Part shown: one piece after another, positions 4,768 to 24,112 of the stretch
Layout of the letters: every line of letters begins with the position of its first letter
Position numbering within the stretch: the stretch's first letter is position 1
Source of the DNA: Physcia stellaris
Taxonomy: Eukaryota > Ascomycota > Lecanoromycetes > Caliciales > Physciaceae
Direction of reading: 5' to 3'
Assembly (NCBI GenBank): GCA_018902385.1
Contig: JABSSW010000081.1
Span: forward strand, 92,701 to 118,677
DNA: 25,977 nt
Translations under genes and position numbers: made by a program
Notes under the pieces: model-generated
The model's database searches: none
What the model was told of the DNA's origin: nothing
Seen by the model: the letters and a program-made list of their open reading frames with translations, nothing else

Positions 4768-4772
4768 AATTG
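4768..4772. repeat. Target site duplication AATTG, left copy
   Basis: The five bases just before the left LTR of element A are AATTG. They are identical to the five bases just after the right LTR (12363-12367). Gypsy elements typically duplicate 4-6 bp of target, so this fixes the element borders and shows integration into element B. Confidence 0.95.
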
Positions 4773-4987
4773 TGTGAGATGCTATGCAATGATATGATAC
4801 TACTACATAATTACACGAGAATATCGAAGTGAAAAGCAAAACATGAGATTTGCAAAACATATGTAGAAAATTTGATTTCTTGAATGCGTCAAGTCGGATT
4901 TCGGCTCTAACACTCGATGTGATAAAATAACGATGTTAGTTCGATGTTAGTTCTGTCAGATGTTGAATTCGATGTACGTTCGTCACA
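4773..4987 (-). repeat. 3' LTR of element A (215 bp)
   Basis: It begins TGTGAGATG and ends CGTCACA on the plus strand, so it has the TG...CA termini of LTRs on either strand. It matches 12146-12362 along its whole length with two 1-base gaps. Of 14 substitutions between the copies, this one carries the T or A state at 11, so it is the more mutated LTR. In the minus orientation it is the downstream LTR, because the polypurine tract abuts 4988. Confidence 0.95.
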
Positions 4988-5008
4988 TTATCTTTCGTTT
5001 TTTTTCAG
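4988..5008 (-). other. Polypurine tract of element A
   Basis: On the minus strand this reads as an A-rich, almost pyrimidine-free run (GAAAAAAAACGAAAG, then ATAA) directly abutting the 3' LTR. Polypurine tracts prime plus-strand DNA synthesis in LTR elements and lie exactly there, which independently confirms the minus orientation. Confidence 0.7.
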
Positions 5009-5922
5009 TTTCGTCTCGAAACGATCAACTGAATTCGTTTTTTTTTAATGATGAACGTTTTGCGCGATCTAAATGCGCTGTTGAGTGACGTTGAATTGAA
5101 TGATTGATGAAGTGAAAAGATAGATTCGAAGTGCTGTGAAATCGATTTCGTTCGCGAAATCGATTCGTCAAGAATCGTGAAAACATCAGATCGATTTACA
5201 GTCTGATCATGTTAGTAGAATCATCGTAACAATGTTTAACGTCTTGATATTTTCGCGTATGCGAATGTTTGTGTGTACATTGCATGCGATAGAGCGTGAA
5301 TTTAATGAATGTTCTGAAAGATAATCAATTTATACGTTTCGTAAGAAGTAACTTCGACGAGCATTAGTAAGCAAGAAATTGTGAATTTGATTTAGCGCGT
5401 CAGCAATTTTGAGAATTTTTGCAACATCAAATTGATATCACGAGACGAGCAATTTGAACAAGTCGATAGAGTTTTTATCATCACGATTAACGCGTTGATG
5501 CTATCGCATATACGACGTTTGACTCGTACATTGCATTCAACGAAATATGCATGTATTAAATTTTCTGAAAAGCAAATATTTTGAACGAATTTTACAGATA
5601 GTTTCGCGTGTCATTAGTAAACAGTTGAAAATTTTGTTGACGAATTCGTAGATGTTCGAACTTTTCTGACAATTTGTTGTTTATTCATATCATTGCATGA
5701 CATTTTACATTATTACTTATTGTTCAATAAGACTTGACGACAGTTTTTGAAGATATTTCTGACACGATTCAGTTTTTCATGCGACGTAAGTTCTGGCAAT
5801 AAGTAACGCGAAATAACATGAAAGCGAAAGATCGAAGCAGAAACTATTTGAATCAGTTTGACAGTGAGTTGTAACGAATTCATGTTGACGTTTTTTGATC
5901 GATCATAAACGATGTTTACAAT
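5009..5922 (-). other. 3' untranslated region of element A with a 250-bp tandem duplication
   Basis: This stretch lies between the terminator of the pol frame (TAG at 5923-5925) and the polypurine tract. I see no coding potential. Its main content is a diverged tandem repeat of about 250 bp (units near 5211-5460 and 5461-5710). Confidence 0.65.
5211..5710. repeat. Diverged ~250-bp tandem duplication in the element A tail
   Basis: Anchors recur at a constant offset. TACATTGCAT lies at 5276 and again at 5527 (offset 251). CATTAGTAA plus A/G CAG-like sequence lies at 5362 and again at 5612 (offset 250). Between them, segments such as TAACG...TTGATG/ATT and TTCTGAAA also match. The units have diverged well beyond the LTR pair, so the duplication is older than this insertion and is probably a property of the element family. 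Confidence 0.65.
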
Positions 5923-6265
5923 CTAGTCATTTCGTAAAGCAAACTTCGTTGTCTTTGAACTAGTTTCGTGAAAGACATTCACGATGTTTTGAGCATTCTG
6001 AAATTCGTCATCGTCGACATAATATCAGATTCGATCATGAAAATTTCAGCTCGATCATTTACAGCGATATTGAAAACGATAATAATGATATCGAGATTGC
6101 AATATATCATCGAATTTTCATTCAAGCATTTCGTTCGCGATAACTGATTTTGAAAAATCGTTATGTTGTTTTTTCAGCGAATTTTTAGAATTTTTTTTAA
6201 TAGTCAAAAATGAAAAATTGAATGAATGTGCATATCGTCGAGCAGTTTCAATTCATAAACGAGAT
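5923..6265 (-). pseudogene. Chromodomain and C-terminus of element A integrase
   Basis: Chromodomains read histone methyl marks and direct chromovirus integration into heterochromatin. From about 6148 the frame reads ANEMLE, TGA, KFDDILQSRYHYYRFQYRCK, TGA, SS, TGA, NFHDRI, TGA, YYVDDDEF. All four TGA codons are where chromodomains have aromatic Trp residues. The element B copy (15754-15970) has TGA at the same four positions. The frame ends in TAG at 5925-5923, the likely original terminator. It is one frame off from the integrase core; the shift lies in an A-run near 6265. Confidence 0.85.
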
Positions 6266-7549
6266 TTTTTTCTTGATCATTTTGTATGAATTCAACTTTT
6301 TGTCGTTCAGTTTGTTTGACGAACGAGTTGTTTTTATATGACGACGATTTAGTCAAACGTAATTTTCTATTTCAAAGTTTATTGAAAAACGAAACTTGTT
6401 GATTCGAACAATTATTTTTTGTTTTGTATCGACAACATTGATTTTGACGTATTCGATGATACGATTCATTTTTTCGACAATGAATTCGTCTTGCTTAATT
6501 AGCAGACGTTTTTTAATGATGTCGTAATCATCTAAATTTGATTCAAAGATCATTCGAAAATGATAATTTTTATTAGTGAAAAATGAAGAGAGTTCGATGA
6601 TTGTTGAAACATCGTTGTTGTCAGCGAATTTCATGATATTTATTCAATCAATTCAATCGTTTTGACGATAATTGCAATACAAACGCAATCGAATTTCGAT
6701 ATTTTGATTCGTTCGTTCAATTTGATCATCGATTTCAGATTGAAAAGCAATGAACAGTTTACATTTGATTTTTAGTCGTTTACAGAAAATTTTTCAGACG
6801 CGATTTACGAACTGATCATCTCGATTTGAAATAATGAATGAGAATAATTCATGAGTACGAAATACATAATGAAGCAATATTTTGACACAAATCTGAATTG
6901 CTAAATTATCGTCATCAGTCACGCAAAAGACGTAATGACGTTTTTTGATTAAACGGTCGATAATAGTACAAATGACATTATTGTTTTTGAAGTCAGATAA
7001 TTCAATTATGAAATTCATCGATATATCAATTCATCGTTGATTAGAAATCGACAATGAAATTAGCAATTCGTGACGATCATCATGTGAAAATTTCGATCGT
7101 TAACATTTGTGACAATTACGAATATAACGTTTGATGAATAGTTTCATATTAAATCAATAGTAATAACGTTTAATGAGTTTTTCAGTACGATTCATGTTCG
7201 AATGTGCACAGAAAAGTTGATCGTGAACGTCACGAATTATTTCAATCATCAGATTTAACTGATTCGACATTCATAGATTTTCGTTCTTAAAAAAAATTTC
7301 GTTTCGATCGGAGCAATTTTGCAAATTTATTTTTTCGTTGATGATTTGTTCATCGATCAGGATTTGACGATGATTAATACAGTTTTCGTTTTCTCGATTG
7401 ATTTGCATGACGCGTTCGTATAAATCGTTTTGAGCGTCAATCGAACATAATTGCAATCGAAAAAATGACAGCAGAATTCGTTTTTTATAGAGTTCACGTT
7501 CGTCGTTTTCGACAGAACGAAATTCAGACATTTTAGTCAGAACATTCGT
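6265..7549 (-). pseudogene. Integrase of element A, catalytic residues mutated
   Basis: Integrase inserts element cDNA into the genome. Following the RNase H linker (MSEFRSVENDER at 7531), the frame shows an HHCC zinc-binding region near 7240-7080: His, six residues, His, then CHKC. The DDE core follows at about 7020-6650. The first Asp reads as Asn (ISMNFI at about 7018), and the second motif reads SNRDDQF, again Asp to Asn. The Glu region is visible as DDQIERTNQ near 6700. Frame phase is constant from 9034 to about 6350. Stops are mostly TGA at Trp positions, plus one TAA after CHKC where a Gln codon is usual. The C-terminal GPY/F-like module (KLNDKKLNSYK) precedes the frameshift into the chromodomain. 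Confidence 0.85.
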
Positions 7550-7999
7550 TTTGACGTTTTTGATTTCGAATTGATATTGAATTCTGATGTTGTAATTCGC
7601 TAAAATTTCGATTCAGCGTATTTGACGAGAAATGAATTTTTTGTTTGTCATAAAGATTTTCAAATTCTTGTGATCGATGTAGATTTCGACTGATTCGTCA
7701 ATATTTTCGAATTCGGATTTTCAATGTTTCAAACATCGAATAATGATCAGAAATTTTTTGTCATATATTTCGTAATTGCATTCGACAGAAATCATTTTTT
7801 TGCTGAAAAAAGTCATCGAATGAAAAATTTCGTCGTCGTCGTATTGAGATAGAATTTCATTCAGACATCAATTTGAGAAATCGATTTTCAGAATAATTTT
7901 ACGATTGCGATCGTAATGTCGAAGAATTGAAATTTCGATTATTTGTTTTTTCAGGATTTCGAATGTTTCGTTAGCGAAATCAATTCATTCGAAATCAGA
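7550..7999 (-). pseudogene. RNase H of element A
   Basis: This degrades the RNA strand of the RNA-DNA hybrid during reverse transcription. On the minus strand the frame reads IILKIDFSN (first acidic residue), then [32 protein letters not shown] (Glu/Asp motif) and IYIDHKNLKIF (third acidic residue). All are standard Ty3/Gypsy RNase H signatures in order. The phase is the same as RT upstream. TGA stops sit at expected Trp positions, for example after LKH. Several former Gly and Pro sites are substituted. Confidence 0.85.
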
Positions 8000-9048
8000 T
8001 TTTTTTTTGATCATTCGAATTAAAAACTTGACGAATTTCGAAAACGTTTTGATGAAACGTCGATAAAAATTGCAAAAATTCACAAACGTTTGCATTTTCT
8101 TGATGCATGTTGAGCGAATTCAATTGACGATGTTTTGCATTTTTTTGAGATTCATGCGTAAGTTTTTTGTCGATAATATGATTTTTAGAAATGAGATTTC
8201 TGTTTGAAAAAATTCGCATTTTTTGATATCGATTTGAAAATCAGTTTTTTTCAGTTTTTGAAAAATTTGAGTGAGATGTCGCTCATGTTGCTTTCGAGTT
8301 TTGCTGTAAATGAGAATATCATTCAGATACATTTGACAAAAATGATTAATATATTCAAACAGCAAATCGTTCATGTAGTGTTGTCAATTGATCGAATCAT
8401 TGATAAAATCGAAAAACAATACATGATATTTGTAAATGCTTAGCGAACATATGAAAATAATAAGATTTTCGTTTTGTGAATTCATTCGGAATTTATTGAA
8501 AGTCGATATAATATTCAACTTGAACAAGAATTTACAATCGATAACTTTAGCGAGAATTTTTTCGATCAACGAAATAGAATAACTATTACGTTTGATTATG
8601 ACGTTTAGTTTTCGATAATTCACGCACAGACGAAATTGTTCATTCGATTTGACGACGAATAAAATAGACGAAACATAAAACGTTTTGTTTGAATTGATAA
8701 ATTTTTTTTGAAAATTATCGTGTAAATATTTCTGAAGAGTTTCGAGTTTCTTGAGCGATAAAAAATAGATTCGATTTCGAGACAGTTGATTCGAACTTTC
8801 GATCAACTCGATTTTGTGATCGTAAAATTTATGAGAAAATAGTTTGTTTGTTTTTTTCGAATTGAATACACTTTCGAAACGTTTAAGAAATTCAGAAATT
8901 TTACGTTTCAATTTTTCGACGACTGTTTTCATGATCTTAAAAGTTTTTTTGAAATTCAGATCAGAATCAGTTTTTATTTTGATCAGTTTTTTTTTGACGT
9001 TGTCAATAATCTCGTTTAATTTTTTCATAATCAATGAAAAAATCTTGA
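8000..9048 (-). pseudogene. Reverse transcriptase of element A
   Basis: RT copies element RNA to DNA. The frame from 9034 gives SHKFYDHKIELIESSNQLSR (the conserved entry to Gypsy RT), then FVVKSNEQFRLCVNYRKLN and SISLIEKILAKV (fingers and palm). After a TGA at 8384-8386 come QHYMNDLLFEYINHF and the catalytic box YLNDILIYS at 8329-8318. The family motif is YxDD; the first Asp reads Asn, explained by GG to GA. FLKIILSTKNLRMN and an in-frame thumb/connection follow to about 8000. The phase differs from the protease/linker frame, with the break at a run of 20 A residues on this strand (9068-9049). Confidence 0.9.
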
Positions 9049-9674
9049 TTTTTTTTTTTTTTTTTTTTAGATTTTGTTAAAGATTGAAAAGTCGTCGCGT
9101 CGATGAACGTCACGTTCAATGATATATCAAAATCGAAATTTTGTTCGTCATTTTCAATTTTCGAAATCGTGATTTTAGATCGTCGACTAGATCGACGTGC
9201 AAATTTCTTGAAAATGTCAAATTTTTTTATCGGAACGTTAATTAGATTCGATCTTTGAGTTTCACGTATGATTTTCGTTTTTCGCTTTTTTTTGGACGAT
9301 TTATTCGGTGAATATTTTTTGTTTATTTTTTCAATGACATATTTGAAATCTGAGTTCAAGAATTTTTTTATTGATTGTTCGTCTTTTTTCGAGTCTTTCA
9401 CAGTAAGGCGAGAAAAAATTACTCGAAAGAATGTCGAGATTGATCGTCTCTGCAATATCTGATATTTCTGAACGTTTGTCGACGAAAACGACGTTAGAAA
9501 TCGTTCAAAAAATGACAAAAAAAGCGTTCTATTCGAGTGCTTGTTCGAATTAAATAATTTTTGAGATATAAACGAACGTGATAACAAAAAAAAAACTTCA
9601 ACGTGATCACAATGATTCGAAGTGAAATAGCATTCGTCGTTGATCATATTGAAAATCATTTCATGTTTGTTCAT
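9049..9674 (-). pseudogene. Protease-RT linker of element A, ending in an A20 run
   Basis: This stretch is in frame with the protease and read-through continues past it. It is basic and Ser-rich with no identified domain. It starts MNKHEMIFNMINDECYF, which parallels NKHEIILNMIYDKL after the element B protease. Several Lys-Lys-Lys clusters end at a run of 20 T on the plus strand (9049-9068). Beyond this run the continuation of the polyprotein is in a different frame. It keeps one of the few Pro codons in the window (SPNKSS). Chromoviruses have a variable linker at this place. Confidence 0.65.
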
Positions 9675-9992
9675 TCAAGATTTTTCTAAAATCAGCGAAT
9701 GCTGTTTTATTCTGATGATGAACAATGAGACGAAAAATTCTGAATGATTTTGTATCGTCATTTTGAGCAATATTTGATGAGTAATAGATTTGATTTTCGT
9801 CTTTTCGAAGTTAAAAACTCTTTTAAATCGAAATAGAGAGATTGAAATTAATTTTAATTTATGACATATTTTTTGCGCAGTTTTTTCATTAATGAAAGCG
9901 TATTCAGAAGTATCGATATCAATTAAGTCATGAATCATGATTTTTCTATCATTCGAAAACAGATTTATTTTTTTAACTAAAGATTTACAATG
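9675..9992 (-). pseudogene. Aspartic protease of element A
   Basis: Retropepsin-like polyprotein protease. Sequence LIDIDTSEYAFINEKTAQKI carries the active-site region; Asp-Ser/Thr-Gly now reads Asp-Ile-Asp, from CC to TC and GG to GA changes. Downstream IKSITHQILLKMTI and SLILEKS then TGA match the element B protease. The frame can be followed upstream to about 9990 (NLFSNDRKIM), which aligns with LSFNDNKHKL in element B. It is in a different phase from gag, as commonly seen for Gypsy pol, but damage could also explain this. Confidence 0.8.
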
Positions 9993-10199
9993 AAATTCGT
10001 TAAAAATGTTATGCTGAAAATCTCGTGAACAAATTCTGATAATTTTTTTCGCGTTTTCGAAAAAGATTGTTAGTTTTTCGATTCAGCGTCGAATGTGATT
10101 GAAGCATCGAAATTTATATTATCGTCGTCGATGCTTGAAGAATTATCGTTGATCAAGAAAATGATTTGCAAATTAAGCATTTTTTGTTTGATCAGATTG

Positions 10200-11620
10200 T
10201 CGATTCAATTATCAAATGATTTGTCAAAAATGCATTTCTTTCATCAATGATTTTTTTCATCACATTTTCGACATTTTTTTTTCAGTTTAGGCAGATTAGA
10301 ACGAGCAATGACAATTTTATACGTTTTTTTCTTTAAGAGAATTGTATATCTAGTTTTCAGATTTTTTATGTACTGTTCATTGCGACGAATTCGGAAACTT
10401 AGCTGACTGATCGATGACTTGTCTTTAATGAAAAAAATGTTGATTTTAGCATCGTTGTTTTTGATGCGACGATGCTTGTTATTCATGATTTGAAATTTGC
10501 GAAAGTAATCGTCAAAAGTTTTATAATCGTTCAAAACAACGTCGACGTGTTGAAGTTTCGTTGTGATTTTTTTTTCGAGATCGTGAATTTTGTTTTTTTC
10601 ATTTTTCTTGAACAGTTGATTGACTAGAAGAAGAAATTCGAAATAAAATTCGTTGAAGAGTTCAATGAATTTCATTTTCAAATTATCGTATTGACGACGA
10701 ACGTTTCGAAAATGATCAGCATCGATATAAATGTCGTTCAAAAGTTTGAAGATTTGATCAACTGATTCGAAGAAATTGCGTTTAATTTCGCGTCGAGTAT
10801 CGATATGTTTCGCAAATTTTTTTTCTGTTCAATCAATAATTGCAGAAATTTTTTTGAATTTATCGACGTATCAGTCGAAATTGATTTTCAATTTATCAAT
10901 GCATTTATTTTTTCAGATATCGTAGCGAATGTATTCGGATGTATTGAAATTCTTATGTTCAAAAAAGATAAAGAGGTCAGAATGTCGAGACGAACGTGTT
11001 TTAGAATCAGAACGAGATTTTTCAACAAAAAAGTCAGATTGCTTGAACGAGCGTTCCTTAGACTCAGAACGGGATTTTTTTTCGAAACTAAAAAATTCTT
11101 CAAGTTTTGATAATCTAACAGTTTTTTTTCGTTGTTTACTTTTATTTTCACGAACACGTTGAGTTTTGAAGAGTTCATTACATTGGATTTGAGCAACAGA
11201 GATTTCGATCTTGACGACACGCAAGATTTCGTTGATTTCATATTTCTTTTTATTATGATTCGAAATTTTGATTTTCATGTTTTTTATTTGAAAATTTCAG
11301 ACTCGGATGACGATCATTTTTCGGTTTCGATCTCGTCGAAAAATCTCGAAGATAGTTCAAAGCTCGTCGAGATGACTGACGATCATTGATTGAAGTTGTT
11401 GTTTCGAGAAGATGTTTATCGAATTAACGGTTTTGAGCGATTCATTTTCATCAAGTTCATCGTCATTTTGACTAGAGTTTAAGACAAGAAAGATGTCGAT
11501 GATATGTTGCTCGAAATTTGTGATTATTCGATCAGAAACATACACGTTCAATTGTGTGATCTCGCTAAGCAGTAATCGATTTTTCAAATTGATTTCGAAA
11601 AAGAAACTTGAAAAGATCAT
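10200..11620 (-). pseudogene. gag: gag of element A with CCHC zinc knuckle
   Basis: A single phase runs from ATG 11620 to the zinc knuckle, interrupted mainly by TGA codons. Order: an acidic N-terminal part; a Ser/Arg/Lys-rich repeat region around 11140-10990 with two SRSxSKxRS-type units; a capsid-like core (LNDIYIDADHFRNVRRQYDNLKMKF at 10741 onward, then FNEFYFEFLLLVNQL) that resembles the retrotransposon Gag domain; and the knuckle at 10273-10232 (CRKC, four residues, His, two TGA plus KK, Cys; CX2CX4HX4C). The start at 11620 is the first in-frame ATG after the leader. Residues for Gly, Pro and Trp are missing throughout. Confidence 0.8.
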
Positions 11621-11953
11621 GATTGTGAGCTGAGATCGAATAATTGTTGAAAAAAAAGAAAAGAAAAAATGAGCAAAACAATGATTTAAGTAGATTTTGA
11701 TGATTGAATTTCATTTAAAATGACAAATTCGATGTGATGTTGAGTGAAATTTCTAAATGTTTGTTTATGATGAAGCAAATGAGTGTTGAATAAAGATGTT
11801 TGTTTGTTGATGTTTTTTCTGATTCAATGATTTTTTGATTTTCAAGCACGAATGCTTCGTCAGAAGTGATAAAAAAAAAAAATTTGTTGTATTGTGAATC
11901 GAAATTATCGCGTGAATTCGTCTGTTCTGAACGTTTTTTAAGACAAAGCAAAC

Positions 11954-12051
11954 GAGTCTATTATGTTTCGTTTCTTTCAATTCACAACGAGTCTATTATG
12001 CTTCGTTGTTCTCGTTGAATGATCAAGATCAGATTGAGTCTATTATGTTTC
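11954..12051. repeat. Three copies of a 16-bp repeat in the element A leader
   Basis: GAGTCTATTATG followed by T or C and TTC occurs at 11954-11969, 11989-12004 and 12036-12051, spaced 35 and 47 bases apart. The only internal difference is one C/T in a CT context. The sequence between copies is not repeated as well, so the 16-bp core seems to have been kept. A protein or RNA binding element in the leader is possible. Confidence 0.8.
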
Positions 12052-12096
12052 TATTCGTTCATTGAATTTAATTGTAAAAGATTTTTGTTTATTTGA

Positions 12097-12121
12097 ATGC
12101 TCGCGTATCATGAACGAGCAT
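12097..12121. other. Inverted repeat (hairpin) near the 5' LTR of element A
   Basis: ATGCTCG at 12097-12103 and CGAGCAT at 12115-12121 are perfect complements separated by 11 bases. The hairpin lies about 25 bp inside the 5' LTR, where primer binding, dimerisation or packaging signals are found in LTR elements. Its role is inferred from position only. Confidence 0.6.
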
Positions 12122-12145
12122 GAAAAAAAAATGATTTCGATATAA

Positions 12146-12362
12146 TGTGAGATGTTATGCAATGATATGATACTACTACATAATTACACGAGGATATCGA
12201 AGTGAAGAGCAAATACATGAGATCTGCAAAGACATATGTAGAAGATTTGGTTTCTTGAATGCGTCAAGCCGAATTTCGGCTCTAACATTCGATGTGATAA
12301 GATAACGATGTTAGCTCGATGTTAGTTCTGTCAGATGTTGAATCCGGTGTACGCTCGTCACA
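12146..12362 (-). repeat. 5' LTR of element A (217 bp)
   Basis: It begins TGTGAGATG and ends CGTCACA on the plus strand. It is the less mutated LTR and keeps rare CC and GG (for example TCCGG near 12342-12346 and TTGG near 12247-12250). In the minus orientation it is the upstream, promoter-bearing copy. No TATA box or start site can be assigned with confidence. Confidence 0.95.
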
Positions 12363-12367
12363 AATTG
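12363..12367. repeat. Target site duplication AATTG, right copy
   Basis: Identical to 4768-4772 and directly adjacent to the TG...CA end of the right LTR. Composition changes abruptly here: CT and AG become rare on the element B side. Confidence 0.95.
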
Positions 12368-12479: not shown

Positions 12480-13780
12480 AAAATTTCGATATATCATATT
12501 GTTTCGTTTCAAAATCAAATTTTTGTTTTTTACAATTGAAAATAAATCAAATGTATTCGATTCGAAATGTTTCGAATGTTCAATTCATTCGAACGTCGAT
12601 GACGATGACGAATCGTTAATCATCGAATCAAATGATTCAAAAATTGATATCACAACAATTACGAAAACGACATTCATTAAAAAATTTTTTTGAAAAAACA
12701 ACGCAACAAACGTTGAAAATTCAAAAAACAACAATTCGAAATTTTTTCATCGTCGAAATTGAATTCAGACGATTCAATAAATATCGCGATAATTGATGCA
12801 ATTATTTTTGTTTATTCGTCGATTTCAAAAATAAAAAACAAAAAATGCAATGTTTTTTCATTACGATCAATCAAATCGATTTCGCGTTCAAAACATTGCG
12901 AACAAATTTTGAATCGTTAAAAATTGTTGTCATGATCAAAAAAATTTTGAAACACGAACAAATCAAATCGATTTTTGAACGTATAATGAAAAAAATATTC
13001 AAATATTTCAAACATTTGTCAAAAATATTCGATTTTCAAAAAACAATTGAATTGTTATCGTATCGATTTTACGATCACAAAATCGAATTTTTAAACGATA
13101 ACAATACATTGTTTCGAAACAAAATATATTTTTTGTTCGAATTCAAATTTCAAAAATTCAAAAAATATTTGAAAAATAATTTTCAAAAAAATTTTATCGT
13201 ATTCAATCAAATTGCATACGTTTCGTTCGTTTTATTTGCAATCAAATCAAACGATCAATTACGTTTGTGTGTGAATTATCGACGATTTAATCACATCACG
13301 AAACGCAATCGATATTTCATTTTTTTGATCGAAAAAATTTTAATCAAAATGCAAAATTGCAAATATTTGATTAAATTGAATATCATATCGATTTTCAACA
13401 AATTTCGAATGAATGAAAAAAGTGAAAAATTCATCACGTTCGTTATTTTCATGAAATTATACAAATATCGAATATTATTTTTCGAATTGATCAACGAATT
13501 CGCGAATTGACAACATTACATGAACGATTTGTTGTTCAATTTTTTGAACGATTTTTGTCAAATTTATTTAAATGATATTTTCATTTACAACAAATTCAAA
13601 AAAAAACACATCGTTCACGTTCGTAAAATGTTGAAAAAATTCAAAAAAATCGAATTGCAAATGAATATTGAAAAATGCGAATTTTTCAAAAAAAAATGAC
13701 ATTTTTGAACGTCATATTATCGATAAATGATTTTCGCATGAATTCGAAAAAAAAAAAATTATTGTCAATTGAAAACGTTT
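12480..13780 (+). pseudogene. Reverse transcriptase of element B
   Basis: The open stretch 12845-13510 holds SYRFYDHKIEFLNDNNTLFR, AIKSNDQLRLCVNYRRFNHI, FFLIEKILIKM-like palm sequence and IISIFNKFRMNEKSEKF. After a TGA at 13508-13510 the same frame continues with HYMNDLLFNF and the catalytic box YLNDIFIYN at 13565-13576 (family YxDD, first Asp now Asn). The frame shifts by one in an A-run near 13690, after which FLNVILSINDFRMN continues the thumb region. Order and motifs match RT of element A nearly residue for residue. An open segment at 12499-12693 is probably in a wrong phase of the linker. Confidence 0.85.
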
Positions 13781-14380
13781 TACAAATTTGAAAAAATGTA
13801 AATTTTCGTGAATTTCGTCAATTTTTACAAACGATTCATTCGTGATTTTTCGAAAAAAAATTCGAATTTTCATTCGAATGATCAAAAAATTCGTGAATTT
13901 CGAATGAATTGTTGAAATCGAAAAAATTTTCAATTTTTTCAAAAAAACAATGACGAAAATTTTAATATTACGACATTACGATCGAATCAAACAAATCATT
14001 TTGAAAATTGATTTTTTTGATTACGTCAATACGAAAGTATTATTTCAATACGACGACGAAAAAATTTTGCATTTTGTTGTTTTTTATAATCGCAACAAAA
14101 TTTCAATCGAATGCAATTACGAAATTTACGACAAAAAATTGTTGATTATTATTCGTTATTTAAAACATTGACGTTTTAAATTTGAAAATATTGAAAAATC
14201 GATCAGAATTTTCATCGATCACAAAAATTTGAAAATTTTCATGACGTCAAAAAAATTAATTTTTCGTCAAATTCGTTGAACAAAATTTTTTCGAAATTTA
14301 ATATTGTTATTCAATTTCAATTCGAAATTCAAAACGTTAAAATAAACGTTTTAATTCGTATGTTTGATTTACGATCAAAA
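13781..14380 (+). pseudogene. RNase H of element B
   Basis: The open stretch 13950-14171 reads IILKIDFFDYVNTKVLFQYDDEKILHF, then [12 protein letters not shown] and LKH, followed by TGA. IFIDHKNLKIFMTS follows in the same frame. The acidic motifs align with RNase H of element A. A one-base shift in a T-run near 14285 precedes the NIVIQFQFEIQNVKINVL segment, which is the usual end of Gypsy RNase H. Many Gly and Ser-Pro sites are replaced. Confidence 0.85.
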
Positions 14381-15620
14381 AACGATATTGACGAACGACA
14401 TCAATATCGAAAACAAATATTGTTTATTTCGAAACGATTCGAAATTCACGCGATGAAATTTGACGAATTTATTTACGAACGAATTTTTGTTGTCAATAAA
14501 ATTGACGATGATTGCACGATTTATCGTGAAATCATTAAACAAAATTTCATTTCAATGAATGAAATTGATTTACGAAATTGCATTGAAAAAAACGACGTTT
14601 TGTATCGAAAAAATCGATTATGAATGTTCGTCGATATTTTTTTATTCATTGATTTTTTCAAAAAAATTCATGAATTTTTGTTTCGAAACATTTAAATTTT
14701 AATTGCATGAAAAATTTTATACGTCGCGATTATTATTGATTCAATATACGCAAAACGATTTGTCGATACGTACGTAATTGTTATAAATGTCAACGCACGA
14801 AAATTTTCAAAAATCGTAAAAACGATTTGTTTACATTTTTGATTATATTTTTGCAACGTTGAATCGACATATTAATAAATTTTATTATCGAATTGTTCGA
14901 CGTTCACGATTATAATGTCATATGCACGATAATTAATAAATTTAACAAAAAAATTTATTACGTGTTTTGCATCGTTGACGACGAAAATATCAATATTGAA
15001 ATCACGATCAAAATATTCATCAATTACGTATTTCGTACATATGAATTATTTTTTTCAATAACGTTTGATCGAAATTTTCAATTCATATCGTTCGTTTAAC
15101 AAACATTTTGTCGAATTTTCGATATCAAATGTAAATTTTTCATCGTTTTTCATTCAAAAATCGATGAACAAATCGAAAAAATCAATCAAAATATCGAAAA
15201 ACAATTGCGACAATATTGCAATTACATGCAAAACGATTGAAACGTTTGATTATTAATGATCGAATTTGCAAACAACAACGCGATATTTGCAATAACAAAA
15301 TTATTTTCATTTTTTATCAATAAAAATTTTCATTTTCGTATAAATTTTTTATCAAATTTTATTTCGTATATTACAACGAAAAAACGATTTTTAATCATCA
15401 AAACAAAAAATATTATTAACATGATGCAAAATATTTTCAATTACGTACGAAATTATGCAAAAATAATTTAAAAACGTATGACAATTCAAATCAACAAATA
15501 TCGAAAAATCGTAAAATACGTCGAAAAAAATTTCGTTTTTTTCGATCGACGAAACATCAAAACGATTAAATCGTTTGACAAATTCAATGACAAAAAATTA
15601 AATTTTTACAAAATATTATA
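14381..15620 (+). pseudogene. Integrase of element B
   Basis: After a linker (14276-14623) the zinc-binding region shows RNCYKCQRTK near 14780-14810 (CX2C half). The core follows: ILINFIIELFDVHDYNVICTI with the first catalytic Asp as Asn, YYVFCIVDDEN, YVFRTYELFFSITFDRNFQF with the second Asp retained at 15065, and IDEQIEKINQNIEKQLRQYCNY carrying the Glu near 15160. MIEFANNNAIFAIT at 15256 continues in frame towards the C-terminal module (KFNDKKLNFYK near 15580-15615). It parallels integrase of element A throughout. Frame breaks before the core and TGA at Trp positions disable it. Confidence 0.85.
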
Positions 15621-16077
15621 ACGTATGAACAATTTTTATCGATTCGAATTGTTTGAAATTATGCATATTTACGATGTGTTTCATTGTTGATTTTTGCGCA
15701 AAAATTTTCGTAATTTATTCGAAAATCAAATCAATGAATTTTTTGATTTCGTCATAATCAACGAAAATTTCGAATGAAAAATGAACGATATTTTGAAATT
15801 TCGATATTATTACAATCGTTTTCAATATCGTGTCAATTGATCGAATTGATTTCATAATCGAACGTGATATTATGTCGACAACGAAAAATTCGATAATGTT
15901 CGCGATATGATGAACGATTTTCATCGTAATTATTTCACGACAACAAATTTAAAATCGTTCAAAACGTTGATTTCAATATTTCAAATCGTCGTCAACGAAT
16001 CAAATTTTTCAACGAATCGTCGTCGTTTTCGAAAAAAAATCGTCATGTTGACATTAATCGAAATTATTTTCAATTAA
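15621..16077 (+). pseudogene. Chromodomain and C-terminus of element B pol
   Basis: The frame reads VIINENFE, TGA (15775-15777), KMNDILKFRYYYNRFQYRVN, TGA, SN, TGA, FHNRT, TGA, YYVDNEKFDNVRDMMNDFHRNY. This is a chromodomain with its Trp codons all turned to TGA. A basic tail with three Arg (NRRRFRKK) precedes a TAA at 16075-16077, the likely original terminator. The phase is constant from the integrase C-terminal module, with one odd TAA near 15620 where Gln is plausible. Confidence 0.85.
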
Positions 16078-16649
16078 CATTTGAAATCACGAATTCAATG
16101 TTCATTCATTCGTTTTTGATTTCACGATTTTTATTCAACAATTCAGTTTTTATTATCATTTCGATGTTATTTACAATCAAAATTTACATCGCATAAAAAA
16201 TTGAATCGTGTCAAAAATATTTTCAAAAATTGTCGTCAAATTTTATCGAACGTTGAAATGACAATAAAACATTAAAAAATAAAAAATGATAATCGTGAAA
16301 TTTCTGAATTTTACAATTATACGAATTGATCAACAAAATTTTCAACAACGTTTTCAAATTTCGAAACAACAACGAATCGTCGAAACGACGTTCACGAAAA
16401 AAAAAATAATGTTACGAACATGTTTGACAAATAAATTTAACAAATAAATAATTGATATGATAAATGATTAAACAAATATGTTTGAATCGAATTATGTTTT
16501 AATTTTTTGACGAAATTAACGTGATTTGAAATTTGACGTTCGCACATTGTTTGCAATTTCATCATTTTGTATTTATTTGTTTTTGCAAATTTATTGTTTT
16601 CGTTTAATTAATCAATAATACGTTTATTCAAACACGATTCATGATACAA
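16078..16649. other. Non-coding 3' region of element B
   Basis: No coding region is supported. A purine-rich run (ACGAAAAAAAAAATAA) ends at 16408 and is followed by TGTTACGAACATG at 16409. That layout resembles a polypurine tract plus LTR start, similar to element A. I could not find a matching left copy, so a right LTR from 16409 to about 16648 is only a possibility. The rest is AT-rich with short A and T runs. Confidence 0.4.
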
Positions 16650-16757
16650 TGTTTGTCAATTGAAATTGATCGTATGTAAATTAATGTTTTTTGTTTATAA
16701 ACAAATTTCGTTTCATAAAATTAATACAATTTTTTACATTTTTTTTTGTTTTTAATA
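16650..16757 (+). repeat. Left terminal direct repeat (putative 5' LTR) of element C
   Basis: It starts TGTTTGTCAATTG and shares nearly all of its first 80 bases with 24013 onward, including GATCGTATGTAAATTAAT and AAATTTCGTTT. The end is uncertain: the left copy reads TTTTTAATA where the right reads CTTTTAACA, consistent with a lost CA terminus. Differences are mostly C/T and G/A in CT and AG contexts, with two at CpA. At ~100 bp it is short for a Gypsy LTR. Confidence 0.7.
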
Positions 16758-17421
16758 ATATGATAATATCATCGTTACAATCAATCGTCATTTTGTATCA
16801 TTAATTGCATCGTGACAATCAACATACAAAACATTTTGTCGATTTAATTTTTAATTTGTTTGTTTTTGTTTTATCAAAATTTTTGTGTTTTCGTCGTTTT
16901 GTTATTTGTTCGATGATTTTTTCATTTCATTTTTCGAAAATTTTTCGATCGATTTTCATTCATTGTCATTGTTTGAATATTTTTTTTATGTATTTTTTTC
17001 GATTACGTTTGCGTAAAAAAATTCAATTAATCAATTTGTGAAAATTTTTCAGAAAATTTTTCACATCTTGTTTGTCAACAAATTTTCGACAAACAATTTC
17101 AATTTGACGTTTTCGAACAATTTTGTCTTGTCATCAAAATTTCTTAACATTGTTTTTCAATTTGACGTTTTTCGTAAAATCGATTATCGATACGTTTCAA
17201 TTATCTCAAACGAATTACGATTCATTCTTGACGTCATCGTTTTTACAAATTTTCGATCAATTGTGATACGTCGACAAATTCGTGACAATAAAACATTTTT
17301 TGTCGAATCGTTTGTTTATTTTTCGAAATGAATTATAATTAAATCAAATTTTCGAATTGTTGCGAAAATTTTTTACAATTAAATTGTTGAATATCGTCAA
17401 ATTCAAATTTATCGCAACTTT
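16758..17421 (+). other. Leader and possible N-terminal gag remnant of element C
   Basis: This 660-bp stretch is AT-saturated. Phe-rich open segments occur at 16805-17041 and 17038-17331 but carry no recognisable domain. A sequence TGATAATATCATCG sits just inside the left terminal repeat, where a primer-binding site would be; if its TGA was TGG it could be one, but no tRNA match can be asserted. Confidence 0.4.
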
Positions 17422-19178
17422 TTGCATTTCAAACTCGATAAAATTAATTCGACGTTCAGTAATAACATCGATAACACGTTAAAACGAAAATTATCGATTT
17501 TTTCAAATGTTTCACGCATATCACGTCGACATCAAAACGTTGACGATACATTTATTATTCGTCAACGTTTTAAATTCGACGAAACAATGTTCACATTTAA
17601 CGTATTATCGTTGACAAATTCAAAAACGTCGATCAATGTTAACAACAATTCTGACATCGATTTCGACGTCATTAATTCGATTGATATTCGTCAAACGTTT
17701 AATTCGCAAAAATCGTCAATTACAATTGAAAAAATAAAAAAAACGATTTCAATATGTTTAATCAATCGACATTTTCAAATCAACAACGTATTGAGTTGAA
17801 AAAAATAATTATTTTTGTCGTCACGTTTGTTATACGTAAAATTGTCACGTCAACATTCAATGACGATGATATTGATAATATTGACGAAATCAATAATGAT
17901 GAAGAAAAAAAAACAATAATTTATTTTCAATTAACGTCAATTTTTCACAATTTGACAATGTTAACGATTGAAAATCGAAAAACATTGATTTTTTTGATTC
18001 GAAATACGAAAATTCAATTCACATCGACGATTCAATCGTCAACGTTAATCGTCACGTATTTTATCGAAACGTTTATGTTTTTATCGACAAATTAAAAAAT
18101 ATGACATCGTTACGTGAAAAAAATAAATTACGTATCGTCATTTCGCAATGTTTACGTGACATTGTTTTAATATGACATTTTGCGAAATTGTCAAATTTCG
18201 AAAAAAATTTGTTTCGAAATCGTGTTACGTTGATTAATTGATACGAAATTTTGATTGTCAAATTCAAAAAACGAACGTCAGAAATTTTCGAAAAATTACA
18301 ACGTTTTCGTTACATCATGATTGACGCACGAAATGCACGCAATTCACGTTTATACGTTCAAAAAAATTTTCGACATGTTAAATCAATTGAATTAAATTCA
18401 ATTTTCAATCAATTCATCATGACGTGAAACAATTTCGATTGAAAATTTCGTCAACATGTGTCAAAATCAAATTCTGATGTCATTATACGTCAATTTCTTG
18501 AAAAATTGAATAAAAAAATCGAAATATGATACGACATGACTAAACATTTCGATCGAAATCAGTTTCGAAATCAGTTTTTCGATAATAATAATCGAAAACT
18601 AAATTCAAATAACAATAACAATAAGCAAAATTCTAAAAATGATCGTGTCGATAATCGAATTAATAATTATTACATTTATCAATCGACGTTTCAACAATTT
18701 CGTTTCGACAATTTTTCATATCAAAATCGAATTTATCAAAATAATCAACAATCAAACGATCGTCAATCACAACGCGTTTTGTTATTCGAAAAACAATCAT
18801 TTCAAATCATCGACGAAAACGCGTCAAATTCGCGAAAAAATCAGAAATTTTCACGAAACGTTAAACGATTTGTTGATAATAATCGATCAATTGACAACAA
18901 CAACAACAACGTTCGTCAAAAGAACAAAATTTATGTCGTTGATGAAAATGACGAAAAAAATTATTGAAAAATTTGTTGAAAATTTCAATCATGATCAGAA
19001 CGTTTTTTATTCGCAAAATTTCAATTATTATGATTCAAATTACGAATTTGACGATTTTGAAAACGACGTTTTCGCAATTTATTTCGTGATTTTTACGTTT
19101 GCAATTGAATGTCGTCGATGTCACAAAACATTCGAATTCAATAATCAATTACACGTTCATTTACGCATCGATTGTTAA
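17422..19178 (+). pseudogene. gag: gag of element C with terminal zinc finger
   Basis: Gag of a Gypsy element. An N-terminal Ser/Thr/Asn-rich part (17422-18095, two frames) is followed by the capsid-like core at about 18100-18540. The core contains SQCLRDIVLI then TGA, TGA-YEILIVKFKKRTSEIFEKLQR, and YIMIDARNARNSRLYVQ. These match, from memory, the WYEAL-FKxRT-LQRxRYTMxDAR pattern of ascomycete Gypsy Gag. All internal stops in the core are TGA at Trp positions. An Asn/Gln-rich segment follows, open from 18536 to 18967. After a frameshift an acidic stretch leads to a CX2CX12HX4C finger (CRRCHKTFEFNNQLHVHLR...C, 19110-19175) directly before TAA at 19176-19178. That TAA is probably the true end of gag. 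Confidence 0.75.
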
Positions 19179-19379
19179 AATGAATTGCGAAAAACTTTTA
19201 CAATTTTAATCGTCGAAATTTCGTTTATTGTTGTCATCAAAATTTTCAACATGTCAATCGTGATCGAAATTTCAATCGATTTCTTGTCGAAAATTTCAAT
19301 TTTTTTGAAAAAATCGAAATCAACAAATTTAATCAAAACGTCAATAATTTCGTTAAACGTCGACGTTTTCAAAAATTTC

Positions 19380-20165
19380 GACATTGATTTTGAATTTCGA
19401 AATTGATCGTATATAAAAAAAAACGTGTCGTTGATCGAAAATGAAAAAAAAAAACGACGTATATTTCGATACAAATGTCAACGTAACGTTAATAAACGCA
19501 ATTTTTTTTTATCGACAAAATTTTGACGTTTCGATACGTCAAATGATTACGTTTTTTACAATGCGTGATTTAAATATTTTACAATATCAAAATTCAAATT
19601 ATGTTATTGTGTCAATGTATTTTGTCGACGTCAAAAACGATAATTCAATCAAAATTTTTATTCGTCGCGAAATATATTTAATAAACAATTTTAAAATCAA
19701 CATGTTTATCGATAACGATGTCATTGTGTCAAAAAACGTCGTTTTCGATTTGATCAAAAAGCAAATTTTTATTGATAATTGTGAAATGATTATAATTTTT
19801 GACGTACGATCGCGAATTAATCACGTTCAACAACGTTTTATTCATGTCAAAAAATTATCGTGTTGTCGTCGCGAAATCAAATAATTATTTTCATACATTA
19901 TTTAGTCGACGAATTGCTCGTCAATCGTGATTTTTTATTCGAATTTGACGAATCAAATTTCATTTTATATGTTCACATAATTGACGTCGACATTAAAATC
20001 GTTTTGATTATCAACGATTCGAATCACGTCGTCAAAATCTCACGCAATTTTCGATTAAACAAATTGATTGAATTTGATTTTTCGCAAATTTATCATTTAA
20101 ACGAAAACGAAAACGTCGTCGAATTGATTAAACGAAAATTTAAATTTGAACATAAAACATTTTGA
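19380..20165 (+). pseudogene. Aspartic protease region of element C
   Basis: The open stretch 19441-19884 starts near the active site: YFDTNVNVTLINAIFF, where the retropepsin motif Asp-Thr-Gly-Ala now reads Asp-Thr-Asn-Val. Gly to Asn is what two successive G-to-A changes after a purine would give. The domain continues with SNYVIVSMYFVDV and NFKINMFIDNDVI, typical of the hydrophobic Ile-Gly-Asp-Asp region of this family. A second segment in another frame (19860-20165) begins VDELLVNRDFLFEF and ends LIKRKFKFEHKTF. It is probably the polyprotein downstream of a shift near 19870. Confidence 0.65.
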
Positions 20166-20779
20166 TTCAAAAAATTTATAACAATCATCGTCGTCATCAA
20201 TGTAATCGTCATTGTCGTAATCAATGATAACACGATTTTATTAAAAATTGTCATTGATTTTTCGTTGTCAAAAAATAAATTCAACGTTGTCGTTTACATT
20301 GTCGAATCGTCAATATTCGAATTGCAAATTTTTTTTTCAATTTTCGTATTTGAATTGCGAAAAAAAAAATTTATTCAAATTATCAAAATTTCGTTCATCA
20401 CAATCGATGTTATCGATTTTGACGCGAAATTTTTCGCAAACAATTTTTTTGAAATAATTTTTTTTAACGACGTCACGATACATCAATCAAACGTTATTCA
20501 ATTTTTCGTCAACATAATCGACGAATTTTTCGCATTGTGAAAAACATTGATTTCGTCGAATTTTTGCAAACATTTGAATGCGTATTTTTTGAAATTTGAT
20601 TCAAAAAAATCGAATTAACAATAAAATCAAAATTTATTCATTTAATCAACGCGACAAAAATTTAATTAATAAAACTTTTGACGAATTTCACGAACAAAAT
20701 CGTTTGTTTTAAATTATTGATTTAACGTCATTTAATTATTCGACGTTCGTTGTTTGAAAAAACGTCGAAAAAAAAAAAA
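20166..20779 (+). pseudogene. Linker between protease and RT of element C
   Basis: Low-information, heavily mutated coding remnant. The open segment 20265-20540 (MSKNKFNVVVYIVESS...) is in a plausible frame for the variable segment upstream of RT. Many TGA and TAA stops follow to 20779. No domain can be named. Confidence 0.45.
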
Positions 20780-21450
20780 TAATTGTAAATATACGCGAGT
20801 TGAACGTTATTACATAATCAGATATTTATTTTTGTTATTACAAATTGACATTATATTCGTCGTTCGTAATTGTTTTTTCATTTCAATTGTAAACGCATCA
20901 ATTTTTTTTTATCAATGACGCGTACATTCGAATGACAAACACAAATTCATTGTCGTTACGTATCGAAATCAAAAATTTTTCAATGTAATCGTTATGAATT
21001 ACAAAAATTCATCGATTTACGTACAACGACAAATAAATCGATTATTGCGCAAATTTCGTCGATTTGCACGAATTTACGTAAATAATATCGTCATTTATTT
21101 TAAAATTGTCGAAAAACATGTTCAACATTTACGATTTGTTTTCGACATGTTACGTCAAAACAAATTTATTAAATTTAACAAAAATTTTTTTAAATTATTC
21201 GTTTGTTCGATTATTCGATCAAAAAATCGATTCATTTGAACTGTCAATCAGTGAAAAAAAATTGAAAACAATAATCAAATTTTCGTTTTCAAAAAACTTT
21301 ACGTCAATTCGAAATCTATTAAAATTTCATTGATTGATTACGTGATTACGTATCAAATTTTACGTTGACGTATTCAAAATTTTACAAAAACGAAAAACTG
21401 AATTGTTAAAATTTTTTCTCAAAATTGACAACGTTAAAAAACATATTCAA
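20780..21450 (+). pseudogene. Reverse transcriptase of element C
   Basis: Readable RT core from about 20785: IVNIRELNVIT, TAA, SDIYF, then (after a one-base shift) FISIVNASIFFYQ, TGA, RVHSNDKHKFIVVTYR, FNVIVMNYKNSSIYVQRQINRLLRKF and ARIYVNNIVIYF. YVNN at 21075-21086 replaces the catalytic YVDD; both Asp are now Asn. IVEKHVQHLRFVFDMLRQNKF and KIDSFELSISEKKLKTIIKF follow. Pieces such as FFYQWRVH and SPAYVQRQIDR are characteristic, from memory, of an ascomycete Gypsy lineage distinct from elements A and B. Confidence 0.8.
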
Positions 21451-22080
21451 ATCGCATTCGACTAAATAATGCGTCATTTTTGAAAACAGAATTTTTTCGC
21501 AATTGCAATTTTTGTTATTCAAGTTTTTCATATTTAATTTATCATGATAACAAACGACAAACATTTGTCGATTTAAATATTAACAAAAAATTCGAATTAA
21601 ATGTCATGATTTATTACGTGAAATCATTCGCAAATTGAAATAACATCGATTATGAATTTCGAAAATTCATTGAATTTATATTGTTTTTTAATCGATTATT
21701 CATTTCAATCGAAAATTTTGCGTTATTGATCAATCGAATTAAAATTGATTGACATTGTTTGAATGTTGAAAAAATAAAACATTTTATCGATTTGTTTGTT
21801 ATCAATCGTTATTTATACAAATCATGATTCGACGTTTAAAATTGTCAAACAAATTTTTTCATTATTTCGTCAATTGACAAATTTAATTTTCGATTCGTAT
21901 TTCGCGTCGAATTATATACAACGTTTCAATTTTGACATTCGTCAAAATTTGACAAACAACATATAATGTCAAACGTTTTATTTCGTTTAATCAATTTCAA
22001 TAACAATATTAAAAAAATTTTCGACAAAAATGAATTAAATGTTTTGTTCATCATTACATTTATCGAAATGAAAAAAATTT
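21451..22080 (+). pseudogene. RNase H region of element C
   Basis: The frame near 21540-21840 reads RQTFVDLNINKKFELNVMIYYVK (first acidic motif LxLD/DLD-like), then FRKFIEFILFFNRLFISIEN (Glu motif) and VEKIKHFIDLFVINR. These fit the Gypsy RNase H order with Gly and Pro sites replaced. Several TGA and TAA stops interrupt. A KQHIMSNVLFRL-like segment near 21955-21990 fits the usual RNase H end (family: Asp-Ala-Leu-Ser-Arg-Leu). Confidence 0.65.
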
Positions 22081-23500
22081 TTCGCAATCGATTGTTAGAA
22101 AATTACATCAAAAATTCTGTTTGAAAAAAAATCATTGTTTTGTTGAATGCACAAAAACAAATCGACATTGAAAACAATGCAATTTTTTTTTATCGAAAAA
22201 ACGATTTCATTTTTCGCGTTGACGATTATATTTTTGATCACATATTTCAATTTCGTCGATTGTGCATTTCGCAATCAATTGTTGACGAAATTTTCGATAC
22301 ATTTCATGACGTCGTCAATAATCATTTCGATTTTGTCAAATGTTGAACGAAATCAATTTTTTACTTTATTCGTAATTTTTTCAAACAATTACGAAAATAT
22401 TTACGTTATTGTTCGAATTGTCAAATTCATCAAATCAAACGACATAAATCGTATGATTTTTTACAATCAATTTTGTCGATTTCGATATTTTTACATTTTC
22501 ATTATTGATTTCATTTTGAATTTTTCAAATTTACGAAAAATTCGATGTCGTTATGTCAATTATTTGCAAATTTTCCAAACGTATCATTTGCATATTGAAA
22601 AAATTCATTTGAACAATTGTTCAATAAATCAAAATTTTGTTGAATCGTTTCGACGTAATCGATTGAAATATTTCGAAAATTATTATTTCGAACAAAAATC
22701 GCAAATTTGTTTGAATTATAAATTGAATTGTTTTGTCAATTAAACGTCAAATTATTTTATTTTATTGCATATCATTCATAAATTGACAATCAATTTGAAC
22801 GCAAATCAATTAAATCGTAACAATCGCGTTACGATTCGTTATGATCATGTTAAACAATTCGATTGATTGATAAACAATTTAATGTTTCGAATTCAACGAA
22901 TTTTCAACAATTTCATAATCAACATCGACAAAACATTCAATGAAATTTTTTATGATTTCATTTTGTTTTATTTAGAAAATTTATTATCGAAATTTTTGTC
23001 GATGTTATTTGATTTTTCGTCGATTGTTTTTCGTTCGATTCAACGTGTTATTCGAAATGAAATAATCGACGTCGTAACGTTCGCTCAAATGCATGTTAAA
23101 TATTATTACGATAAAAATCACATTTTTTTTATGAAAATCGACGATTGAACATTTTTTCAATTGAATATTACAAAATATCAATCACGATTCGATAGCAAAA
23201 CAAAAATACGTTTCGACAATATATTGATTTATTTCAAATTATTGAACGCATTCGAAAAACTTGTTTATCGATTATTTTTTTTCAATTAATTGACAAATTT
23301 ATTTTGTGAAAATTTTATTATCGTTGATTAAAATTTTGTTCGTCGTTTGACGATAATTTTTATCGTCGTTTTAAATTAACAAAATCGAATTCAAATTTTC
23401 GCTGAAAACGATACATTTTTTTCAAATCAAATTTTGAAAATTGAATCGCTTTATGAACAAGCGAAAATTTAAATCGAAAAATCGAATATTTTGTACGTTA
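22081..23500 (+). pseudogene. Integrase of element C
   Basis: The open stretch 22140-22346 ends with the His half of the zinc-binding domain (FHDVVNNHFDFVKC). A shift leads to YLRYCSNCQIHQIKRHKSY (CX2C half, about 22400-22445). The core is readable in broken frames: IIDFIL near 22500, KFSKRIICI, LLNRFDVID, KIIISNKNRKF (second Asp changed) and FIAYHS...IDNQFER near 22760-22800, the region of the catalytic Glu. FRIQRIFNNF at about 22880, YDFILFYLENLL and FAQMHVKYYYDKNH (22867-23148) continue towards the C-terminal module. The whole order matches Gypsy integrases of the same lineage as the RT. Confidence 0.7.
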
Positions 23501-23864: not shown

Positions 23865-24012
23865 AAATAAATGAAAAAATGAATTAAAATTACGAATCGA
23901 CGATATTGATTATTTCAATTGAAACAATGTTTTATTTTTTTAATTGAAACAAACTGTTAAAATTTGATCAAATTTGACAAAATTTCTGTTTGTTGATTTT
24001 GAAATTGATCAA

Positions 24013-24112
24013 TGTTTGTCAATTGAAATTGATCGTATGTAAATTAATTTTTTGTTTATAAGCAAATTTCGTTTTATAAAATTAATACAACTTTTTTTTT
24101 TTGCTTTTAACA
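24013..24112 (+). repeat. Right terminal direct repeat (putative 3' LTR) of element C
   Basis: It starts TGTTTGTCAATTG, matches 16650 onward, and ends TTTTAACA, giving TG...CA termini. It keeps AAGCA and CAACTTT where the left copy has AAACA and CAATTTT, again AG to AA and CT to TT. It reads TTTTATAA where the left copy has TTTCATAA, one exception at CpA. No clear polypurine tract precedes it. Confidence 0.7.

Follow-up and report, generated by a model that had tools for sequence, protein, structure and literature searches.

C-to-T mutation at cytosines before pyrimidines in AT-rich, repeat-type DNA of Physcia stellaris

What kind of process changes a retrotransposon at cytosines that stand before a pyrimidine and leaves those before a purine almost untouched? 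The question is raised by a 25,977-nucleotide stretch (the window) of the genome of Physcia stellaris, an ascomycete of the Lecanoromycetes (Caliciales, Physciaceae), which covers positions 92701-118677 of contig C81 and carries element A, a retrotransposon bounded by long terminal repeats (LTRs). An earlier note on this DNA had read the two LTRs of element A as the record of a process resembling repeat-induced point mutation (RIP), hitting CpC and CpT (together CpY) and sparing CpA and CpG (together CpR). The assembly analysed (43.97 Mb, 147 contigs) is somewhat smaller than the published draft (46.57 Mb, 184 scaffolds, 43.3% G+C; PMC7513301), and neither RIP nor repeat-induced is a word of the main text of that genome paper. 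All counts were made on both strands, a changed G being scored as a changed C of the opposite strand (CpT/ApG, CpC/GpG).

LTR pairs and copies of the element family

LTR 1 of element A (4773..4987, plus strand) starts with TGTGA and ends with CACA, LTR 2 (12146..12362) lies on the same strand, and the internal part between them (4988..12145) has its long open frames on the minus strand. Comparison of the flanks revealed a 5-bp target-site duplication, AATTG, at 4768..4772 and again at 12363..12367, and the LTR boundaries given earlier were upheld. Global alignment of the two LTRs returned the 14 substitutions, all transitions, and the two 1-base gaps that had first been counted by eye. Every changed C precedes a pyrimidine (or every changed G follows a purine), eight sites being of the CpT/ApG and six of the CpC/GpG type. 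The estimate that nearly half of about 30 CpY sites had changed was borne out by a recount of 14 of 31, versus 0 of 55 CpR sites (Fisher p = 6e-8). CpA and CpG were indeed unchanged in this pair, but the numbers of such sites had been put at 12 and 11, whereas we counted 33 and 22 beside 17 unchanged CpY, probably a difference in strand counting. The even strand split was seen again in a by-eye count on the alignment (7 C/T and 7 G/A); both strands being hit, with no strand patches, the data fit the double-stranded substrate that had been argued for, without proving it. LTR 1 is more mutated than LTR 2, carrying the T or A state at 11 of the 14 sites (by eye). In a 30-copy multiple alignment, where a gap was placed differently, the same pair shows 15 transitions.

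The pattern was then followed through the family. The family has at least 40 LTR copies, scored among 295 candidates, and all eight same-strand LTR pairs found by position were used, six of them about 7.2-7.4 kb apart and two (on C29 and C64) 3.2-3.7 kb apart. Pooled, these pairs showed 112 transitions and 0 transversions, the excess of C-to-T change on both strands that is expected of RIP. Changed and kept sites numbered 86 and 58 for CpT, 9 and 1 for CpC, 12 and 244 for CpA, and 2 and 174 for CpG, and a further 3 changed cytosines precede a C/T difference; CpY was thus changed at 98 of 157 sites versus 14 of 432 for CpR (Fisher p ~6e-54). CpC was changed at 9 of 10 sites versus 86 of 144 for CpT (p = 0.09).

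Whole elements gave the same ranking. In 28 pairwise comparisons of eight elements, which cover 130,059 aligned columns and are not independent of one another, changes were found at 227 of 232 CpC, 6667 of 8391 CpT, 1936 of 15179 CpA and 1357 of 14223 CpG sites, together with 3,229 transversions. CpR differences were greater between subfamilies that are also rich in transversions; in the low-transversion comparisons of the window with L038, of L037 with L039 (more than 7,000 columns, fewest transversions) and of L037 with L041 (3 transversions), they fell to 4-8% for CpA and 3-4% for CpG. An all-pairs table built from 30 of these 40 LTR copies (CpA 18%, CpT 75%, CpG 3%, CpC 169/171) was dropped in favour of the within-element pairs, as it mixed old subfamily changes with new ones in a messy 250-column alignment. 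Neither of the two outcomes that the earlier note had named as fatal to its pattern was found: family-wide rates at CpA and CpG were far under those at CpC and CpT, and transversions were absent within the LTR pairs. The mismatch which it had seen with both CpA-preferring RIP and CpG deamination holds.

It is the 3′ base that decides, on both strands, and the 5′ base is of little effect. In the element comparisons the changed fraction was 0.82 for ACT, 0.73 for GCT and 0.80 for TCT; 0.125 for ACA, 0.09 for GCA and 0.12 for TCA; and 0.12 for ACG, 0.07 for GCG and 0.07 for TCG. This speaks against both ultraviolet (UV) damage and deaminases guided by the 5′ base. CpC and CpT are dipyrimidines and lichens grow in full light, so that C-to-T change by UV in a sun-exposed lichen might be considered. 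The UV signature, however, requires a pyrimidine beside the C, most strongly on its 5′ side, and TpC is hit whatever its 3′ base; here TCA was changed no more than ACA and TCG less than ACG, ACT and GCT were close to TCT, and the GC-rich DNA of the same genome was normal, which makes UV a very improbable cause. Scarcely more probable is a free cytosine deaminase, APOBEC/AID-like or of another kind, acting on retrotransposon complementary DNA (cDNA) or single-stranded DNA. The genome does hold eight PF00383 matches, which may be housekeeping deaminases. Yet such deaminases recognise the base 5′ of the C and act on a single cDNA strand, whereas in P. stellaris specificity lies in the 3′ base, both strands are affected, a ribosomal DNA (rDNA) copy is hit too, and the changes came after insertion, because the LTRs of one element differ.

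A displaced rDNA copy, AT-rich compartments and coding frames

The displaced rDNA unit on contig C41 gave the direction of the change, which is C-to-T, and showed that targets are not confined to transposons. It holds the one 5.8S rRNA match among those listed for the assembly (scoring covered 39 of 2,644 first-look candidates). The 3.2-kb locus round this 5.8S has 31% G+C and an observed/expected ratio (o/e) of 0.05 for CpC, and the surrounding 9 kb are low in G+C throughout. The Rfam consensus of the large-subunit (LSU), small-subunit (SSU) and 5.8S alignments was taken as the ancestral letter, among the LSU and SSU alignment positions listed. In a strict set of 571 upper-case consensus positions, scored on both strands with an upper-case neighbour required, C-to-T changes were found at 42/45 CpC, 28/51 CpT, 1/39 CpA and 0/34 CpG sites, CpC being more mutated than CpT (p = 2e-5); 93 of the 103 upper-case substitutions were C-to-U or G-to-A, and 3 were U-to-C. 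The SSU match in this region (C41:42000-51000, L053) spans 4,296 bases for a 1,831-position model and so contains large insertions, which may be group I introns. The assembly may lack intact rDNA.

Ordinary decay of unselected DNA, by deamination of methyl-CpG or by AT-biased mutation, would suit a region that is AT-rich and presumably free of selection. However, CpG was kept both in the rDNA copy (0/34 changed) and in the LTR pairs (2/176), and 0 transversions stood beside 112 transitions, so that we regard this explanation as almost without probability.

In order to see how far the pattern extends, base composition was determined in the window and 52 further loci, together 225,440 distinct positions, of which 433 N-free segments of 500 bp were used; the loci had been chosen for an LTR, methyltransferase gene or rDNA match, with one contig end added, and the shares below are not genome shares. 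Segments below 35% G+C (342 of 433) had o/e values of 0.023 for CpC, 0.29 for CpT, 1.23 for CpA and 3.30 for CpG, versus 0.95, 1.07, 1.08 and 0.90 in the 83 segments at or above 42% G+C; the 8 segments in between had intermediate values. The border between the two classes can be sharp, for example about 6 kb into locus L055. The three methyltransferase gene loci and other GC-rich DNA were normal and the LTR loci and the rDNA copy were hit, in a non-random choice of loci whose segments were sorted by base composition. At these loci the pattern appears confined to AT-rich, repeat-type DNA. We regard it as real and strong, and as general in those parts of the genome that were sampled.

Such DNA escapes the canonical RIP indices. 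With the thresholds quoted in PMC6180176, TpA/ApT >= 0.89 and (CpA+TpG)/(ApC+GpT) <= 1.03, both were satisfied by 0 of the 342 AT-rich, 0 of the 8 middle and 2 of the 83 GC-rich segments; the AT-rich class had values of 0.45 and 1.35. The CpA preference of RIP was likewise not found, CpA being changed at 12/256 sites versus 98/157 for CpY in the LTR pairs. One may ask whether ordinary CpA-directed RIP had simply exhausted its CpA sites and left only CpT and CpC polymorphic. In Colletotrichum truncatum, a CpT bias stands beside a very low CpA index (PMC6180176), and such exhaustion may hold for the Colletotrichum CpT families. In P. stellaris it has next to no probability, since CpA is abundant and for the most part unchanged, and the AT-rich DNA has a CpA o/e of 1.23 and a TpA/ApT of only 0.45.

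The coding frames bear the same mark. As CpA is spared, glutamine and arginine codons should survive and only tryptophan (TGG) should turn into a stop. The presumed coding blocks of element A, 1,600 minus-strand codons picked as nearly open, contained 18 TGA, 1 TAA and 0 TAG stops, versus 205 TGA, 150 TAA and 33 TAG in the remainder of the three minus-strand frames (p = 2e-4). Four open fragments of the window (165-223 amino acids) each had 0 G, 0 W and 0-2 P together with 5-9 Q, 4-5 H, 2-6 M and 2-3 C. A reverse-transcriptase fragment at 12845..13510 (plus strand) belongs to a related element that runs the other way; PF00078 is present in 31 of the fragment's 110 relatives, and its product of 221 amino acids has no G, P or W beside 9 Q, 4 H, 6 M and 3 C. 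An open, mutated stretch at 8384..9034 (minus strand) is, by inverted similarity to that fragment, probably a piece of the reverse transcriptase of element A. Pfam reported no reverse transcriptase in either fragment itself.

With a mutated reverse-transcriptase fragment as protein query, 110 matches were obtained, 31 of them with PF00078. The sum of G, P and W was at most 2% in 98 of the 110, and in 92 of those 98 the sum of Q, H, M and C was at least 5%. Pooled, the 87 matches known from ENA only had 0.09% G, 0.14% P, 3.1% Q and 2.4% M; the 23 with NCBI or JGI sources had 0.22% G and 0.61% P. Loss of CpY with CpA left in place would yield such a composition. Judged from these protein sequences, the matches suggest that the CpY style occurs in other fungi, as a lead, for a query without G, P and W biases what it finds. 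Prevalence cannot be read from them because of this bias and because damage of the CpA type leaves no open frames. Many metagenome proteins are reverse-transcriptase fragments nearly without glycine and proline, apparently gene-finder translations of mutated repeats, and some (P0190, P0209) have tryptophan where arginine is expected (by eye), a hint that CpG is changed in some other fungi.

Methyltransferase genes and the proposed mechanism

The earlier note had proposed a search for cytosine methyltransferase genes, and it was productive. PF00145 (DNA_methylase) had four matches in the genome, falling into three genes and no other loci: two of the RID family, as expected of a RIP system, and one DIM-2-like. 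The RID-type gene on C5 has the motifs PPCQ and EQT, matches the 932-residue protein P0001 and is identical (100% protein match) to hypothetical protein G7Y79_00005g016670 of P. stellaris. The second RID-family gene lies at C6:791557-792528 (L031) and has PPCQ and EET; by their sequences both look intact. In enzymes of the Masc1/RID type EQT or EET replaces ENV, and the Rid of Botrytis has EET (PMC6709928). The DIM-2-like gene on C3, an open frame of 1,118 amino acids with the motif ENV, has the Pfam domains DUF7893 and DNA_methylase and matches PDB entry 9bap_A, listed as a DNA (cytosine-5-)-methyltransferase, with E 5e-188.

A 32-row methyltransferase tree, rooted at the midpoint and with several long branches, paired the C6 protein with one from Heterodermia (100/100), within a group of 12 rows that includes DmtA-type proteins of Aspergillus and Histoplasma (97/96). 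The C5 protein was placed with one other protein (98/82), next to an Alectoria protein (97/93). On this placement we take the two RID types to be old paralogues. Motif VI (EQT versus EET) was tried as a simple marker of dinucleotide class and rejected, as the EET clade includes Aspergillus DmtA and Aspergilli are reported to show CpA and CpG changes (PMC4352252). The EET type is common to P. stellaris and Heterodermia, and lichen genomes with both RID types are a possible subject for a survey.

Taken together, P. stellaris is likely to have a RIP-like genome defence which turns C into T where the C precedes a pyrimidine, probably driven by a methyltransferase and with a weak leak into CpA. We call it RIP-like as it works like RIP but lacks the CpA preference and fails the canonical indices. 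New retrotransposons and other extra copies, such as the displaced rDNA unit, would be recognised as duplicated DNA, presumably before meiosis. C-to-T change would then be made on both strands, most strongly at CpC and next at CpT, and repeated until CpY is nearly gone, CpG being passed over and CpA weakly hit. The enzyme would most likely be a cytosine methyltransferase of the RID/Masc1 family with an altered 3′-base specificity, the candidates being the C5 EQT-type and the C6 EET/DmtA-type proteins, with DIM-2 as a possible partner.

A variant that overlaps with this RIP-like defence gives the whole task to DIM-2: heterochromatin-directed 5-methylcytosine (5mC) would be laid down at CpY in repeats and then deaminated, possibly in vegetative cells. 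A DIM-2-like gene is present, DIM-2 of Neurospora crassa preferentially methylates CTs, which makes DIM-2 a real candidate, and Dim2 of Zymoseptoria drives mitotic C-to-T change at CA (PMC8016269). However, CpC was more mutated than CpT in the rDNA copy, and according to the same source 5mC in Zymoseptoria is strongest at CG and almost absent at CT, the reverse of the P. stellaris targets. DIM-2 acting alone is therefore unlikely, though it remains the most serious of the competing explanations.

Several observations weigh against the RIP-like defence with CpY targets as we propose it. The sampled loci were a non-random choice, made by LTR, gene or rDNA matches. Sparing of CpA, as claimed in the earlier note, is right insofar as CpA lies far below CpY, but it is not absolute over the eight LTR pairs, where CpA was changed at 12/256 sites versus 2/176 for CpG (p = 0.05). 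Between element copies the CpA differences ranged over 4-20%, and in the comparisons of the window with L042 and of L036 with L042 they reached 11-13%, with CpG at 3-4%, although transversions were few; a weak CpA leak is therefore likely. When lower-case positions of the rDNA are added (1,275 in total), the counts become 131/186 CpC, 83/143 CpT, 23/134 CpA and 28/136 CpG; we think that the lower-case CpA and CpG changes are ordinary divergence in variable columns. Strand-clustered runs, a feature of RIP, were not found in 15 comparisons (30 tests, |z| < 1.7). Finally, the link to RID or to meiosis would hold by analogy.

Other features of the window, related systems and meaning

Element A lies among more heavily changed DNA. 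Its CpT o/e is 0.61, versus 0.01-0.28 in the 2-kb bins outside it, as expected of a younger, nested insertion. By dinucleotide counts, 14001..25977 is an older AT-rich mass in which CpY is nearly gone (0-1 CpC and 2-17 CpT per 2 kb on both strands) and CpA and CpG are kept. Inverted related elements at 5942-8868 and 13026-15950 face each other with 68% identity over 3 kb. A direct repeat at 16568-16793 and 23928-24163, about 7.36 kb apart and with 88.6% identity over 114 bp in its best part, probably represents, by its sequence, two LTRs of an older element that have since diverged; as a second readable pair it was rejected, being too diverged and AT-rich, with 14 A/T changes and C/T changes also before A. 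When the right half of the window was compared with itself under relaxed settings, most matches had 56-63% identity, and the comparison was discarded. None of six open fragments of the window passed the curated cut-off of Pfam; the end of the open frame at 18639-19178 resembles a C2H2 zinc finger under that cut-off (E 0.019).

Compared with RIP of N. crassa, the P. stellaris system shares C-to-T change on both strands, AT-rich, repeat-type compartments whose borders can be sharp, a displaced rDNA copy that was hit, and RID and DIM-2 genes. It differs in its CpC/CpT targets, its mostly intact CpA, the stops that are nearly all TGA in the presumed coding frames and the negative indices. As a main or second target, CpT is also known elsewhere: beside CpA in Magnaporthe oryzae, Botrytis cinerea and Sclerotinia, which have RID/Masc1 in one or two copies (Amselem et al., 2015; PMC4352252); with CpA in Anisogramma anomala, which has two such copies (PMC10998396); and in some families of C. 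truncatum, for which a very low CpA index is given as well (PMC6180176). Unlike P. stellaris, these CpT-biased systems also show change or loss of CpA, and the accounts cited report none in which CpC is strongest or CpA is spared. Monilinia has classical CpA mutation with CpC double mutations (PMC8959702). A C-to-T bias in transposons is shared with Microbotryum, rusts and Tuber, where it is of the CpG type (in Tuber with CpA; PMC4352252); CpG, however, is spared in P. stellaris, whose PF00145 loci are only the two RID-type genes and the DIM-2-like gene. In rDNA pseudogenes of other ascomycetes mainly CpA is changed, CpT being comparatively high in N. crassa (PMC5555474).

Among Lecanoromycetes, RIP has been called in two species (PMC7882544). 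Cladonia rangiformis resembles P. stellaris in its GC-poor repeat compartment with sharp borders and in having RID and DIM-2; RIP was measured there by GC content, and the main text contains neither CpA nor dinucleotide and leaves the context unstated (PMC12542154). A survey of more than 1,000 fungal genomes concluded that a preference for CpA is common to RIP-like defences (Badet and Croll, 2025; PMC12543289). Its 130 species with a strong signature are Dothideo-, Eurotio-, Sordario- and Leotiomycetes, and in its main text Physcia is unnamed and lecanoromycetes appear only in the legend of a non-coding k-mer figure. The earlier note knew of no CpY-specific RIP system, and no report of CpY-only RIP was found in the literature searched, the scope of which left out Clutterbuck (2011) and PMC7493409 (Ophiocordyceps internal transcribed spacer, with CpC in the text).

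The pattern in P. stellaris contradicts the view of a shared CpA preference put forward in PMC12543289, as far as that text goes. It also means that a repeat compartment can be heavily mutated and yet go unnoticed by the standard RIP indices, and RIP may be under-called in some lineages. If RID or DIM-2 enzymes are responsible, P. stellaris would offer a natural switch of specificity, and the question of dinucleotide preference could be tested through their target-recognition regions. The predicted fate of broken elements would be missense change at glycine, proline and tryptophan, with few stops. More broadly, and tentatively, it is conceivable that the repeat mutators of fungi fall into separate 3′-base classes, with P. 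stellaris in a CpY class that complements the CpA one, perhaps by way of the EET-type RID that it shares with Heterodermia. Many lichen fungi may belong to this class, which would have gone unseen because RIP software scores the loss of CpA. If this is true, the CpY class would leave glutamine and arginine codons in place, make stops mainly from tryptophan codons and give rise to long frames nearly free of glycine, proline and tryptophan.

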